34,059 bases of DNA. Source: Patescibacteria group bacterium (GTDB lineage Bacteria > Patescibacteriota > Minisyncoccia > Moranbacterales > SCTJ01). Numbering within the stretch: position 1 is the stretch's first letter; every line of letters starts with the position of its first letter. Positions 20,958 to 26,779 of the stretch are shown one piece after another. The translations under genes were made by a program, and so were the position numbers. The stretch covers positions 1 through 34,059 of the forward strand of contig SCTJ01000077.1 of the NCBI GenBank assembly GCA_004297805.1. The letters run 5' to 3'. Below the pieces are notes generated by a model. That model saw only the letters and a list, made by a program, of their open reading frames with translations. It had not been told where the DNA came from and ran no database searches.

Positions 20958-20966
20958 ATTATACCA
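20958..20966 (-). promoter_or_regulatory. Extended -10 promoter overlapping the ruvB stop codon
   Basis: TGGTATAAT on the minus strand is an extended -10; its TATAAT contains the ruvB TAA stop. The predicted leader is about 5 bases. Confidence 0.5.
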
Positions 20967-21969
20967 ATTTCTCCTGGCGTTCCACTGGAAAGTCACAGCC
21001 CAAATGTGCATAACCCCTTTCCGTCACCATTCTACCACGCGGGGTACGCGAGAGAAAGCCTAGTTGCAACAAATATGGTTCATAGACGTCCTCGATAGTC
21101 TCCACTTCTTCCATAGTGGCTGCCGCGATTGTCGAAACGCCGACCGGCCCGCCATTGAACTTTTCAATCACGGTCCGTAGAATGTGACGATCAGTTGGTT
21201 CCAGACCCATCGCGTCAATATCCAACATTTTGAGCGCCTCTTCGGCCACGGCTTCGGTAATAAGGTCGTGTCCATGAATCTGAGCGTAGTCTCTGACGCG
21301 CTTTAAGATCCGATTGGCCACCCGTGGAGTTTGCCGACTGCTCTTGGCCACTCGTTTCGCCCCTCCCGGATCGGCTTTTACGTCCAAAATTCTGGCCGAT
21401 CGCTGAACAATCTGTTCAATTTCTGGTTCCTGATAAAATTCCAGTTTATATACCGCCCCGAATCGATTGCGTAGCGGATTGGAAATCGAACCCAAGCGTG
21501 TGGTAGCTCCAATGAGAGTAAACTTGGGCAGATCTAATTGGAGCGTACGCGCCGATGGACCCTTGCCAATAATAATATCCAGCTTGCGATCTTCCATAGC
21601 GGGATAAAGCACCTCTTCGATCAATTTGTTGAGTCGATGGATTTCATCAATGAACAAGATATCGCCATCTTGTAGATTGGTGAGAATCGAGCCTAAGTCG
21701 CCTACCCGTTCAATAGCTGGGCCCGAAGTGGTTTTGATGCCCACTCCCATTTCCCTAGCAATGATGTTAGCTAGCGTCGTCTTGCCGAGGCCGGCTGGTC
21801 CATAGAGCAGGACGTGTTCAATGGCCTCGCCGCGCTGTTTGGCCGCCTGAATCAAAATATCCAGGTTGCGCTTTACCTGCGCTTGACCCACATACTCGTC
21901 AAACCGCTGCGGGCGCAGGGTATTTTCAAAACTCAATTCTTCTGGTTGTTCCTGTGAATTGGTAATCAT
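20959..21969 (-). CDS. ruvB: Holliday junction branch migration ATPase RuvB
   Basis: RuvB is the hexameric motor of RuvABC. ATG 21969 (336 residues) was chosen; the frame extends to 22053, but that stretch is the dispersed repeat. The AAA+ domain shows GPAGLGKTT (57-65), the DEIH Walker B (108-111) and sensor GATTR (154-158), with an arginine-finger region PLRNRFG near 165-171. The winged-helix end has [21 protein letters not shown] (in two blocks). It starts its own transcript from a promoter that overlaps that of the divergent RNA gene. Confidence 0.95.
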
Positions 21970-22035
21970 AGTATTCGTGGAGCGTAAAACCTGAGACTTA
22001 GAGCGTATGGGTTGTGCCCTCTGCGCTACGCGCAT
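21970..22035. repeat. Diverged GCGTAGAACG-type repeat in the ruvB leader
   Basis: GTGGAGCGTAAAACC, TTAGAGCGTATGG and CTGCGCTACGCGCA resemble the units at 11856-11925 and 33724-33768. The match is loose. Confidence 0.35.
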
Positions 22036-22062
22036 TGTAACACCTGTTGACAAATTTTGGAA
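22034..22062 (-). promoter_or_regulatory. Promoter of ruvB
   Basis: TTCCAA (22062-22057), 17 bases, TACAAT (22039-22034), preceded by TGT as an extended -10. Transcription should start near 22027. Confidence 0.55.
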
Positions 22063-22075
22063 GCCGTGCTACACT
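22047..22075 (+). promoter_or_regulatory. Promoter of the candidate RNA gene
   Basis: TTGACA (22047-22052), 17 bases, TACACT (22070-22075). It overlaps the divergent ruvB promoter by 16 bases. Confidence 0.7.
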
Positions 22076-22081
22076 TGCTTG

Positions 22082-22421
22082 TCATTCAGTTTTTGGCTCA
22101 TTAAAGCGCGTTTTTGAATGGCACGCAGCGATCTGTAGACAGTTGGGGGCTTCTATCTTTTGTCCTCAATATCGGGAACATTTTGCCCAGATACGGGCGT
22201 TTTGGTACGCCCCGCACTGTTTCTTAGAGTGATTCGAGATTATCACACAACACTTATTTTGATTTGACTGTGATGAATCTTGTTCCTTAGTGGAGATAGT
22301 GCGGGGCACGCTAGAGCGTTCCTCGACATTGTTCCTTCCCCGGGATTCCTATGTTCTGGGATTTGTCTACAGATCACTGCGGGTGAGAAGATAGCGAGCG
22401 GACAGAACGGTCCGCTTTTTT
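22082..22421 (+). ncRNA. Candidate structured non-coding RNA, about 340 nt, family unassigned
   Basis: No convincing gene lies between ruvB and the gene ending at 22531, but the plus strand has a promoter, strong long-range base pairing and a classical terminator. 22125-22141 pairs with 22364-22380 (17 positions, one mismatch). 22209-22218 pairs perfectly with 22298-22307 (GCCCCGCACT/AGTGCGGGGC). An apical stem is formed by 22237-22247 and 22269-22280 with one bulge. Small hairpins are GCCC-AGATAC-GGGC (22185-22198) and a 5' CATTCA/TGAATG (22083-22120). A long rod with internal loops is 6S-RNA-like in outline, but no diagnostic sequence was found. Motifs of RNase P, tmRNA and SRP RNA were looked for by eye and not found. 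Confidence 0.65.
22398..22421 (+). terminator. Terminator of the candidate RNA
   Basis: GCGGAC (22398-22403), 6-base loop, GTCCGC (22410-22415), then six T. Confidence 0.9.
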
Positions 22422-22530
22422 CGTGCAAAAAATATTCACTCAACCGCGCATGAAAAAGTGGCGTGATTATTTAGTCCATTCCGCGTTTGGTCTTTTGATG
22501 CACAAGAAAGATAGGGCCAGCATTCGGGAA

Positions 22531-23619
22531 CTACACGCCTACTACTCTGTACGTCTCGCTATGCCAATCTATCGGCTCGGTATGGCCCCATTTGAGAAAG
22601 ACTCGATTATTAAGACCGTCAAATAAAACCTCGCTGACCGATGCATTGCCCGAGACAAAATAGGCGCCCAGGTGATAGCAGCGATTGCCTCCGTCGGGAG
22701 CGCTGCTCTTCATAACATCAATGACCTGGTCGGTTTGTTCCAAATGGACCAGAAAACGAACTAACCACTCCTCAGGGGTGATTCCACGCTCATGCTGATA
22801 TTTGGGCTGACTTTGAAGGTCCTGGAGATATTTTTTGGGATTCATCCGAATTCGATTGCCCAGTATAATATTCGGTTGCATCTCAGAACTAGGCTCCGTC
22901 AGAGTAACGAGGAAGCCCGGAAAAGTGCTTTTTTCGCTCAATAGTTGCTGCTTTGTTTTGCCTTGGTGTTTCTTTGGATCAAACCGCTTGGGAAAGTAAA
23001 CCAATCCTCCTGATCCCATCACCTTGTCGTTAGTATATCCCTCCCACATACTCAGTGGGGAATGACCTGGGTTGGTTTCACAATCATTGGGGAGTTTTAG
23101 CTGAGTCAGTTGTTCCTTTGGATCATCCTGATTGCGCTTAGCGGCAAAAAGCTTTCCGGCCTTGTGATGATCAAGCAATGTTTGCGCAACAGCGTCAGCA
23201 AGCTCTGGGAGTGATAAAGCGAAAGGGGTGACTTGCAGTTTCGTGAAACCTTGGCTTATTTTATCTTTGAGCTCGGGACGGGACATAATTTGGCGTATAA
23301 TCTGTCCTAGAGTCGGAAGAAAATATTTTTCGTCATCAATGCCGGTAATATAGCGTTCACCGGAGGGAAGCCTCTCCAAAATACCATTCTGAACAAGAAT
23401 TTGAACTTGTGATTCATATTGTTCCTTGAGGGTTTTGTGAGAAAATTCGGAAAAAGGCCACACCAATTCGACACTTAGTCTCTCAATTGAGGCTTTGAGC
23501 TCTTGGGAAAGCTCTTCAGCTTGGTCAACACTTTCGACTTTTAGCGCCTGATCAAATTGGGCCTTTTGAGTGAGGATTTGGGAGAAAAATTTGCCAAGCT
23601 CCGAACAATTCAATTCCAT
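22531..23619 (-). CDS. Unrecognised protein, 362 residues
   Basis: The start is taken at ATG 23619 because an extended -10 (TGGTATACT) lies 8 bases upstream; a further ATG at 23661 would lie before that promoter. The product has no signal peptide or membrane helix. The N-terminal third is helical and charged (QAEELSQELKASIERL). Segments of note are SGERYITGIDDEKYFLPTLG, HSPLSMWEGYTNDKVMGSGG and NRCYHLGAYFVSGN. No family could be assigned with confidence. The length, consistent codon use and promoter support a real gene. It lies between the candidate RNA and the pilus ATPase. Confidence 0.65.
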   Translation of the reverse strand: MELNCSELGKFFSQILTQKAQFDQALKVESVDQAEELSQELKASIERLSVELVWPFSEFSHKTLKEQYESQVQILVQNGILERLPSGERYITGIDDEKYFLPTLGQIIRQIMSRPELKDKISQGFTKLQVTPFALSLPELADAVAQTLLDHHKAGKLFAAKRNQDDPKEQLTQLKLPNDCETNPGHSPLSMWEGYTNDKVMGSGGLVYFPKRFDPKKHQGKTKQQLLSEKSTFPGFLVTLTEPSSEMQPNIILGNRIRMNPKKYLQDLQSQPKYQHERGITPEEWLVRFLVHLEQTDQVIDVMKSSAPDGGNRCYHLGAYFVSGNASVSEVLFDGLNNRVFLKWGHTEPIDWHSETYRVVGV

Positions 23620-23627
23620 ATGTCGCC

Positions 23628-23636
23628 AGTATACCA
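23628..23636 (-). promoter_or_regulatory. Extended -10 promoter of the 362-residue protein
   Basis: TGGTATACT on the minus strand, 8 bases before the ATG; predicted leader 0-2 bases. No matching -35 at standard spacing. Confidence 0.5.
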
Positions 23637-23720
23637 CAAAGTCATTTTCAACCTGCAGCACTCATCAAAAAAGCGCCCCTCAAACGGAACGCTTTTTCAA
23701 ATCCCAGTAGTATATTTGGG

Positions 23721-26700
23721 CTACTCCTCCGCCACGCGCTCCACTTCCTCGAGCGTTGTTTCGCCTTCCAAAACTTTGATGATTCCGTCTTGCAACATAG
23801 TGAGCATTCCCTTCTCAATCGCCTTTTCCTTGATTTGCATGGAAAGTTCACTGTGAGCAATCATTTCGCGAATTTCCCGATCGGCCACTAGCACTTCGCT
23901 GATCGTGGTACGCCCTTTGAAGCCCGTACCGTTACATTTTTCGCACCCCTTCGGTTGGTAGACATGCTCAGCGGATGGAATTTCAACTCCGGCTAGCGGA
24001 GAAACGGTCGCTAAAATGCGTTTTATTTTTTCAGCCTCCTCGGGTTTGGTGTCCCTGGCCTCACGGCACGAACAAAGTTTGCGCACCAAACGTTGGGCCA
24101 TGAAGGCATTGAAGGCGGTGGCCAAATCATCTGAGCGCACTCCCATATTAATGAGCCGCGGCACGGCGCCGGAGGCGTCATTAGTATGCAGCGTAGAAAG
24201 CACTAGGTGCCCGGTTAGGGCAGATTGCACAGCCACATTAGCCGTTTCGTCATCCCGGATTTCACCCACCATCATGATATCTGGATTTTGTCGGAGCAGC
24301 GCTCGGAGAGCCGTGGCAAAGGTGTAACCACCTTCTTCATTAGCCTGCGTTTGCAAGATGCCTGGCAGTTGATACTCAATTGGATCTTCAACCGTAATGA
24401 TTTTCACATCTGGATGATTGATGGTGCGCAACAAACTATAGAGCGTGGTGGTTTTTCCTGATCCAGTCGGACCAGTGTTGAGAAAAATGCCATTCGGTTT
24501 TTTGATCTCATGCAAAATCTTGTCGAGATTTTGTTTGCGAATTCCCAACTTTTCAATGTCGAGCGCTACGGCTGCCTGATTGAGCAAGCGCATTACCACC
24601 GTTTCTCCATAGCCTCCCAAAATAATAGACACGCGCACGTCCACCTTCTTCTCCATTATCTCTTCCACTGTATTTTCGATTTGGATGGAAAAGCGACTGT
24701 CTTTCACGCCTTCACGCGATTCCGTCCTGAGGCCGCTGAGCATCTTGATGCCGCCCAAAAAGGTGGGATATTCATTGAGTGGAATCGCAGCCACTTCTTG
24801 TAGCACGCCATCGATGCGCAACCGAATCTTCACTGCTGCTTCTTCTGGTTCAACATGAATATCGCCCGCTTTGAGGTGCAGTGCCGCCGCAATCACATAC
24901 CGCAGGGTGTCTTTTTGATTGGTCTCTCTGATAAACTTTGAAAGGTCTGCAAACGATCCGGTATGTCCCGCTACTTCATCAAAGTCTTTCTTCTGCACCA
25001 AAATATAGCGCGCCAATGTTTGATCCATCAACTTTTCATAGACATTCTCCAGAAAATCAGTTTGCCCAGTCACCCGCACCACCTCGTCAATTGAAGTGGT
25101 CCCATCCACAGCTTTTAAGATCCCGTCTTGCGTCATAGTGATCATGCCTTCCTCCAGGGCCTCCCGCGCAATGTCGCCCTCGCTCGCCATGTTTTCCACC
25201 AGCTTCACAATTGCATCGGTCATGGTGATTATTTCAAAAACACCAATGCGCCCCTTGTATCCAATCCCGTTACATTTAGGGCAGCCCTTGGGTCGATAAA
25301 GTTTGGTCACCTCTTTGGGCAACTCCAGCTTGGCCTTGGGAGAAATGAGAGCCAGCATACGCTTGATTGATTCCACTGTTTCTGGGGCTGGAACATATTC
25401 CTCGCGACAAAAGGTGCAGAGTTTGCGCACCAAGCGTTGCGCGATGAAAGCATTCACTGAAGGCGGCAACAAATTCGGCTTCACGCCCAACTCAATGAGG
25501 CGCGGCACGGTCGCGGCAGCACTATTGGTGTGAATGGTGGAAAGCACCAGGTGTCCCGTCAGTGCTGCATTCACTGCAATGTCAGCTGTTTCGTCATCCC
25601 GGATTTCACCCACCAGCACCACATCGGGGTCCTGTCGCACGATAGCTCTGAGGCCCTTGGCAAAAGTATAGTCCTTGCTTTTGGAAACCTCGGTTTGGGA
25701 AATGCCTTTGATTTGATATTCAATCGGATCTTCAATCGTAATAATTTTGACGTCCGCTGTATTCAATTTATTAATGATGGCATAGAGGGTAGTGGTTTTT
25801 CCTGATCCAGTCGGACCAGTATTTAAAATCATGCCGTTTGGCTTGTCCATCTGTCGCAGCAGCTCCTCGTAGGCCTTGCCACGAATTCCCAGCTTTTCCA
25901 TGTCCAAAAGCACATCCGCTTCATTCAAGAGGCGCATCACCACGCTTTCGCCGTGATTGCCAGGAATGACATTCACCCGGATATCGATTTTGTTATTTTC
26001 TAGTTCCACTGCAAAGTGACCATCTTGAGAAATTTTCCGGATGTTCAACTTCATTTTGCCCATCATCTTCACCCGATTGAGAATGAAGGTGTAGCTCTCC
26101 GAAGGCAACATTCCAATATCCTGCAGCACGCCGTCAATGCGATACCGCAAGCGCACTTCGCCTTCTTGCGGTTCAAAGTGAATGTCTGAGGCGCCCATCT
26201 TCACCGCCCCAGCCATAATAATATTCACCACTTGAGTGGTCGGTATTTCTCGAATCCGTTTCTTGAGTTCAACCAGATTGCCGAAGTTGCGATCAAACTC
26301 TTCTAAGTCGGCTCCGGAAAGTGACATCCGCAACATGTCTACGTTTTCAAGCAAGGGAGCGAACTTAAACTTGTTCCAAACTTTTTCTAGTGAGGAAACG
26401 GAAAAAACATAGAGCGTTGTTTGATAGCCCTCATCTTTTTTCAAGTGTTCCACAAATTCTTGGGTTCCCGGTGCATCTGGATTCACCACTCCAACCTTGA
26501 TGTTCTTGCCCCGACGCTGAAACACAGCCACGCTATATTTGTGCGAGTCCTCTTCAGAAATAGTTCGGATATCATCCGAACTCATCGGAAACAAATTGAG
26601 ATCAACATAAAACAAATCGTGTTCGCGCGCTAATTTAGAAGCTGCCACCTCCTCCTCAGCCTTGTTAAACTTGGTCAGAATTTTTTGCGTCGCGACTGAT

Positions 26701-26744
26701 TTGTCTGAATCTGTTTTTATTTTGCTTTTGATGACTTTAACCAT
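23721..26744 (-). CDS. Tandem GspE/PilB-type ATPase (two complete motor modules in one chain)
   Basis: The product is 1007 residues from ATG 26744, about twice the usual PilB length. After an N-terminal N1E-like domain (about 1-130), module 1 has GPTGSGKTTTLY (310-321), Asp box TIEDP (336-340), GEIRDDET (379-386), His box STIHTN and zinc cysteines 443/446 and 488/491. Module 2, without its own full N1E domain, has GPTGSGKTTTLY (758-769), TVEDP (784-788), GEIRDDET (827-834), STLHTN and cysteines 891/893 and 934/937, so its first pair is CxC. Both ATP sites look intact. The enzyme should power type IV pilus assembly at the inner face of the membrane. The promoter puts transcription start at ATG 26744, 18 bases inside the longest frame. 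No other pilus gene is in the window. Confidence 0.92.
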   Translation of the reverse strand: MVKVIKSKIKTDSDKSVATQKILTKFNKAEEEVAASKLAREHDLFYVDLNLFPMSSDDIRTISEEDSHKYSVAVFQRRGKNIKVGVVNPDAPGTQEFVEHLKKDEGYQTTLYVFSVSSLEKVWNKFKFAPLLENVDMLRMSLSGADLEEFDRNFGNLVELKKRIREIPTTQVVNIIMAGAVKMGASDIHFEPQEGEVRLRYRIDGVLQDIGMLPSESYTFILNRVKMMGKMKLNIRKISQDGHFAVELENNKIDIRVNVIPGNHGESVVMRLLNEADVLLDMEKLGIRGKAYEELLRQMDKPNGMILNTGPTGSGKTTTLYAIINKLNTADVKIITIEDPIEYQIKGISQTEVSKSKDYTFAKGLRAIVRQDPDVVLVGEIRDDETADIAVNAALTGHLVLSTIHTNSAAATVPRLIELGVKPNLLPPSVNAFIAQRLVRKLCTFCREEYVPAPETVESIKRMLALISPKAKLELPKEVTKLYRPKGCPKCNGIGYKGRIGVFEIITMTDAIVKLVENMASEGDIAREALEEGMITMTQDGILKAVDGTTSIDEVVRVTGQTDFLENVYEKLMDQTLARYILVQKKDFDEVAGHTGSFADLSKFIRETNQKDTLRYVIAAALHLKAGDIHVEPEEAAVKIRLRIDGVLQEVAAIPLNEYPTFLGGIKMLSGLRTESREGVKDSRFSIQIENTVEEIMEKKVDVRVSIILGGYGETVVMRLLNQAAVALDIEKLGIRKQNLDKILHEIKKPNGIFLNTGPTGSGKTTTLYSLLRTINHPDVKIITVEDPIEYQLPGILQTQANEEGGYTFATALRALLRQNPDIMMVGEIRDDETANVAVQSALTGHLVLSTLHTNDASGAVPRLINMGVRSDDLATAFNAFMAQRLVRKLCSCREARDTKPEEAEKIKRILATVSPLAGVEIPSAEHVYQPKGCEKCNGTGFKGRTTISEVLVADREIREMIAHSELSMQIKEKAIEKGMLTMLQDGIIKVLEGETTLEEVERVAEE

Positions 26745-26750
26745 GCTGCC

Positions 26751-26779
26751 ATTGTAGTCCATTTTGGCCTGAAGAGCAA
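26751..26779 (-). promoter_or_regulatory. Leaderless promoter of the tandem ATPase
   Basis: TTGCTC (26779-26774), 17 bases, TACAAT (26756-26751), then 6 bases to the ATG. Confidence 0.6.

Follow-up and report, generated by a model that had tools for sequence, protein, structure and literature searches.

A rod-shaped RNA gene opposite ruvB with a fold conserved across Paceibacteria

Patescibacteria make up a large part of bacterial diversity and have very small genomes. Two described RNAs come closest in shape to the RNA presented here, which we call the ruvB-opposite rod RNA: 6S RNA (SsrS, RF00013), which shares with it a rod form, paired ends, its own sigma-70 promoter and a single copy per genome, and the bacterial SRP RNA (4.5S, RF00169), which resembles it as a short rod with a tetraloop tip. 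In position, the counterparts are the small RNAs (csRNAs) found near ruvB in many streptococci (PMC4211561), the parallel drawn here being one of position. Loss of SRP in Parcubacteria has already been published (PMC4508563).

The window, that is, the whole stretch of 34,059 nucleotides analyzed, is contig C37 of a host genome of 1.4 Mb in 250 contigs. The original prediction, made from these letters alone, was of a structured RNA gene opposite ruvB, either a diverged 6S RNA or something new; it proposed an Rfam search and a covariation analysis of relatives, and named a conserved protein frame as evidence that would count against it. The features of the locus are collected in Table 1. Taken alone, TTGACA-N17-TACACT occurs at chance level (1 found versus 0.7 expected in shuffles). 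Near-consensus sigma-70-type promoters lie within 100 bases upstream of 60 of the 76 copies; shuffles give about 4 such cases and the opposite strand gives 8. A T-tract follows the 3' side of 38 of 74 copies (21 expected). Many class members from beyond the order have a P1 that extends into the flanking sequence as far as a T-tract, and there P1 may double as the terminator stem.

Table 1. Features of the rod RNA locus and its neighbors in the window (dashes as strand: reverse)
Feature	Positions	Strand	Remarks
ruvB	20959..21969	-	predicted start ATG 21969; RuvB_N, lid and C domains; divergent neighbor, outside the RNA
Sigma-70-type promoter, TTGACA-17 bases-TACACT	22047-22052 + 22070-22075	+	predicted start near 22082
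Predicted full transcript, ~340 nt	22082..22421	+	from promoter and terminator; one closed rod when folded
Conserved RNA core	22125..22380	+	covariance model R1: 127 bits, 4.6e-29; class model: 110 bits
P1 closing helix, 5' arm GCAGCGA T CTGTAGACA	22125..22141	+	partner 22364-22380
P2 hairpin, loop TTCTATCTTTT	22142..22170	+	stem covaries; loop almost invariant in Moranbacterales
P3, 5' strand	22174..22179	+	partner 22331-22336; 5/5 modeled pairs covary
Conserved internal-loop region, 5' side TGCCCAGATACGG	22184..22196	+	AG, GG nearly invariant class-wide
P4 arm	22195..22322	+	tip 22208-22309, a ~102-nt expansion specific to this genome
10-bp perfect stem in P4 expansion	22209-22218 / 22298-22307	+	
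Conserved internal-loop region, 3' side CCTCGACA	22321..22328	+	CCTC 95-100% (57 members)
P3, 3' strand	22331..22336	+	partner 22174-22179
P5 hairpin, 3' side	22339..22360	+	7/7 modeled pairs covary
P1 closing helix, 3' arm TGTCTACAG A TCACTGC	22364..22380	+	partner 22125-22141
Intrinsic terminator, 8-bp stem + six T	stem 22396-22417, T run 22416-22421	+	
376-aa gene of unknown family, between RNA and pilB	22531-23661	-	without any Pfam match
pilB	23721..26762	-	two T2SSE domains; convergent neighbor past one inserted gene, outside the RNA

Folding of the + strand (22082-22425) yields -146.5 kcal/mol, against -97.8 +/- 4.6 in dinucleotide shuffles (z = -10.6; 0/100 as good), and the - strand folds more weakly (z -6.7). 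In P1, bases 22125-22131 and 22133-22141 pair with 22364-22372 and 22374-22380, leaving T22132/A22373 as the single mismatch in 17 positions. The original prediction had described this closing helix of 22125-22380, the promoter upstream and the terminator with six T downstream; each is present where it was placed, the promoter is conserved there in relatives, and covariation marks the lower stems as conserved structure. It had also pointed to a perfect 10-bp inner stem and an apical stem. Both are present, but neither belongs to the conserved core, because both lie in the ~102-nt expansion that replaces a UNCG-type tetraloop and are local additions; the closing helix is old.

Covariance model R1 was built from 19 relatives, and R2 is its refined version. 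Among 57 members across the class, 94.3% of partner cells pair, and changes on both sides are seen at 48 of the 53 pairs. The covariation score is 0.599 versus 0.215 when shuffled, with 0 of 500 shuffles reaching the real value, and sliding the partners abolishes the signal. This 57-member alignment was fitted to the model; sequence-only alignments carry the same signal (29/53 pairs in the order; 27/41 in 20 other class members). Counts from a further alignment, A5, were set aside because it contains five opposite-strand self-matches and the second copy of locus L200. G-U cells far outnumber A-C cells (400 versus 48), which identifies the + strand as the RNA and led us to reject a minus-strand RNA. 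A conserved reading frame was sought in the 76 cores, and no single frame was stop-free in more than 14 of them; a protein gene was rejected on this ground. The covariation, the strand-specific G-U pairs, the conserved promoter and the lack of a conserved frame bear out the predicted structured RNA gene opposite ruvB. Promoter conservation, the ruvB/pilB context and the absent frame make an RNA gene near certain, its transcription being predicted, and we regard the presence here of an RNA gene with a fold kept by evolution as practically assured. The gene and its fold are strongly supported; its transcription, partner and function are what we infer from them.

Turning to the individual elements, compensatory changes are found at 15 of the 16 P1 pairs (57 members), and the 9-bp P1 sequence CTGTAGRCA/TGYCTACAG is frequent in remote members too. 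The axis consists of P3 and P4, which are separated by a conserved asymmetric internal loop, CAGAU/CCUCG. As read from the alignments, the P1 sequence and this internal loop are conserved beyond the needs of pairing. Alignment A3 includes 20 members from the order, 18 of which have the P2 loop CTATCTTTT. The P2 helix is unformed in 17 of 57 class members, some of which pass almost straight from P1 to P3; P5 is likewise missing in some members. The P4 tip is a UNCG-type tetraloop in most other members, with long stems instead in several genomes.

When the locus was compared at the DNA level with 95 same-order genomes, roughly half of them had a match at E < 1e-3, and the matching sequence is split into two blocks (22133-22198 and 22317-22379). 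Most of the named records that contain the loop motif belong to Candidatus Moranbacteria/Moraniibacteriota, which points to Moranbacterales as the order and Paceibacteria (Parcubacteria) as the class; a few matches in other phyla (e.g. Clostridiaceae, Acidobacteria) have no ruvB context and were taken as chance. A scan of 384 Paceibacteria genomes with model R1 picks up the RNA in 136, nearly always as a single copy, with a second, overlapping match in two genomes. Under strict filters many class genomes have no match, so the RNA is perhaps neither universal nor essential. With R2 it was found in 31 of 380 genomes sampled across the phylum, 15 of the 31 lying outside the class. Certainty is lowest for the most distant matches, which score 30-39 bits. 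The nearest upstream divergent gene is ruvB in 70 of 76 loci, and ruvB is again upstream wherever the contig reaches in two families from other classes (f123, f153). Members of a further remote group have vanW-like and clpP genes in the vicinity of the RNA in place of ruvB, and a locus from another class (L200) bears two tandem copies (1286-1388 and 1501-1603) 3' of a VanW-like gene. Downstream, pilB is convergent in 58 of 76 loci, some loci being too short to show it. Most class members have no gene at the spot of the 376-aa inserted gene. The PilB encoded here has 1013 aa with its T2SSE domains in tandem, within the ~1000-1027 aa seen in Moranbacteria, versus ~555 aa in other Paceibacteria.

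Overall, the best explanation, to which we give a probability of about 0.6, is a stand-alone non-coding RNA gene whose product acts in trans as an RNP scaffold. The rod RNA would then be a well-expressed, housekeeping-type RNA, probably protein-bound. Action in trans as an RNP scaffold is favored, on balance, by the sealed long helix, the favored sequence, the asymmetric internal loop, the insertion-tolerant tips, the strong promoter and the changing remote neighbors; the clpP and vanW-like neighbors and the tandem L200 copies argue for trans action in particular. In the mechanism we infer, at every step from sequence to function, housekeeping RNA polymerase would transcribe the gene from ~22082 to 22421, and P1 would seal the RNA ends together. 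The RNA would act in trans, most likely offering protein contacts at two sites, the conserved sequence of P1 and the CAGAU/CCUCG loop. The P4 tip, which tolerates insertions, would probably be solvent-exposed, and the invariant P2 loop would serve as a lineage-specific contact.

Several other readings were weighed against this one. Good folding is also seen in long inverted repeats, which might suggest an inverted-repeat element or folding artefact and no gene at all; covariation already contradicts this, and the recurrence of covariation and promoter across many families, the fixed position and the single copy per genome make it hardly credible. The loop motif was found in no viral contig, and a phage origin was likewise rejected. 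Points that weigh against a scaffold are the absence of P2 and P5 from some members and the near-fixed position beside ruvB within the class, which also suits a role in cis: an antisense transcript or transcription unit controlling ruvB, or an element terminating or silencing read-through from pilB to ruvB. The convergent pilB fits such a role, and a read-through transcript, if any, would be complementary to the RNA. However, the predicted transcript does not overlap the predicted ruvB coding start, an antisense role has no need of compensatory changes, and remote members have other neighbors; we consider the cis role unlikely. Also improbable is a base-pairing small RNA using the exposed P2 loop UUCUAUCUUUU as its seed. 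The loop is unpaired in the ensemble and almost invariant in Moranbacterales while the P2 stem covaries, but other orders lack P2 or have a different loop, and its complement is not enriched in ~459 kb of neighboring DNA (5 chance-like sites), for which reason the seed was set aside.

The rod shape, paired ends and strong promoter would also suit a second 6S RNA, or a diverged one, trapping RNA polymerase by open-promoter mimicry, and a vacancy exists for one, no 6S having been found in Moranbacterales with RF00013 or, among the genomes listed, with R3, a Paceibacteria 6S model. Weak RF00013 matches do occur in three class genomes, which share the motif GCACCCACCUGG or GACACCCACCUGG. These matches represent a diverged Paceibacteria 6S RNA (GGGAG..CUUAUAU ... 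GUGCGGGCACCCACCUGG) below the Rfam cut-off (L101:1501-1649, L102:1501-1653, L103:1501-1636). R3, built from these three 6S-like copies, detects such an RNA in 136 of the 384 genomes of the class, some weak matches possibly being false given only three sequences. Both RNAs are present at different places in at least 42 class genomes (45 counting extra R2 matches), and the genomes with the strongest co-occurrence (G103, G104, G172, G155, G341) should by themselves suffice against 6S identity. Neither the window, its relatives nor the permissive scans gave an RF00013 match to the rod RNA, and the large central bulge is missing. At class level we therefore reject a diverged 6S RNA, a part of the original prediction that the co-occurrence and missing bulge leave unsupported; within Moranbacterales, where no 6S was seen, a 6S-like role keeps a small probability, and we think it doubtful as a reading of this locus. 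A trans-acting scaffold remains the preferred reading; more tentatively, the rod RNA might be an ancient Patescibacteria housekeeping RNP RNA that predates the class split, was lost in some lineages and has a molecular function not known in other bacteria.

As to its standing, Rfam 15 at the gathering threshold gave no family in the window or in 16 relatives, in keeping with the prediction of something new. Permissive scans of the window core, locus L027 and seven further loci returned chance or terminator matches only, the low-score matches in L027 lying mostly at the terminator hairpin and being taken as chance. No report of the RNA was found in the literature searched, a body whose coverage ends short of subscription journals, preprints and large candidate lists (e.g. 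PMC8040213). The novelty thus lies in the RNA family, and a new function, though possible, is unproven. Models R1 and R2 provide a concrete, searchable family missing from Rfam 15, and this family offers a testable way into Patescibacteria biology. Many tiny genomes that have shed SRP in Parcubacteria still keep this RNA under a strong promoter, so it must repay its cost.

In comparison with the known systems, none of the 384 class genomes has a match to SRP RNA (RF00169), and none of 28 order genomes has an Ffh match above the cut-off, three weak partial matches being all that was seen, in agreement with the published loss in Parcubacteria (PMC4508563). The absence of RF00169 from 384/384 genomes had raised the reading that the rod RNA is the missing SRP RNA; this was rejected, as the order lacks Ffh as well and no SRP-like motif was seen. 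Nor does RF00169 match the rod RNA. Unlike 6S RNA, the rod RNA has no large central single-stranded bulge, the unpaired bases next to P1 having medians of 3 on the 5' side and 5 on the 3' side; it has no Rfam match, and it coexists with a 6S-like RNA. Among housekeeping RNAs, the genome also has RNase P RNA and tmRNA, both encoded at other loci (L104, L107).
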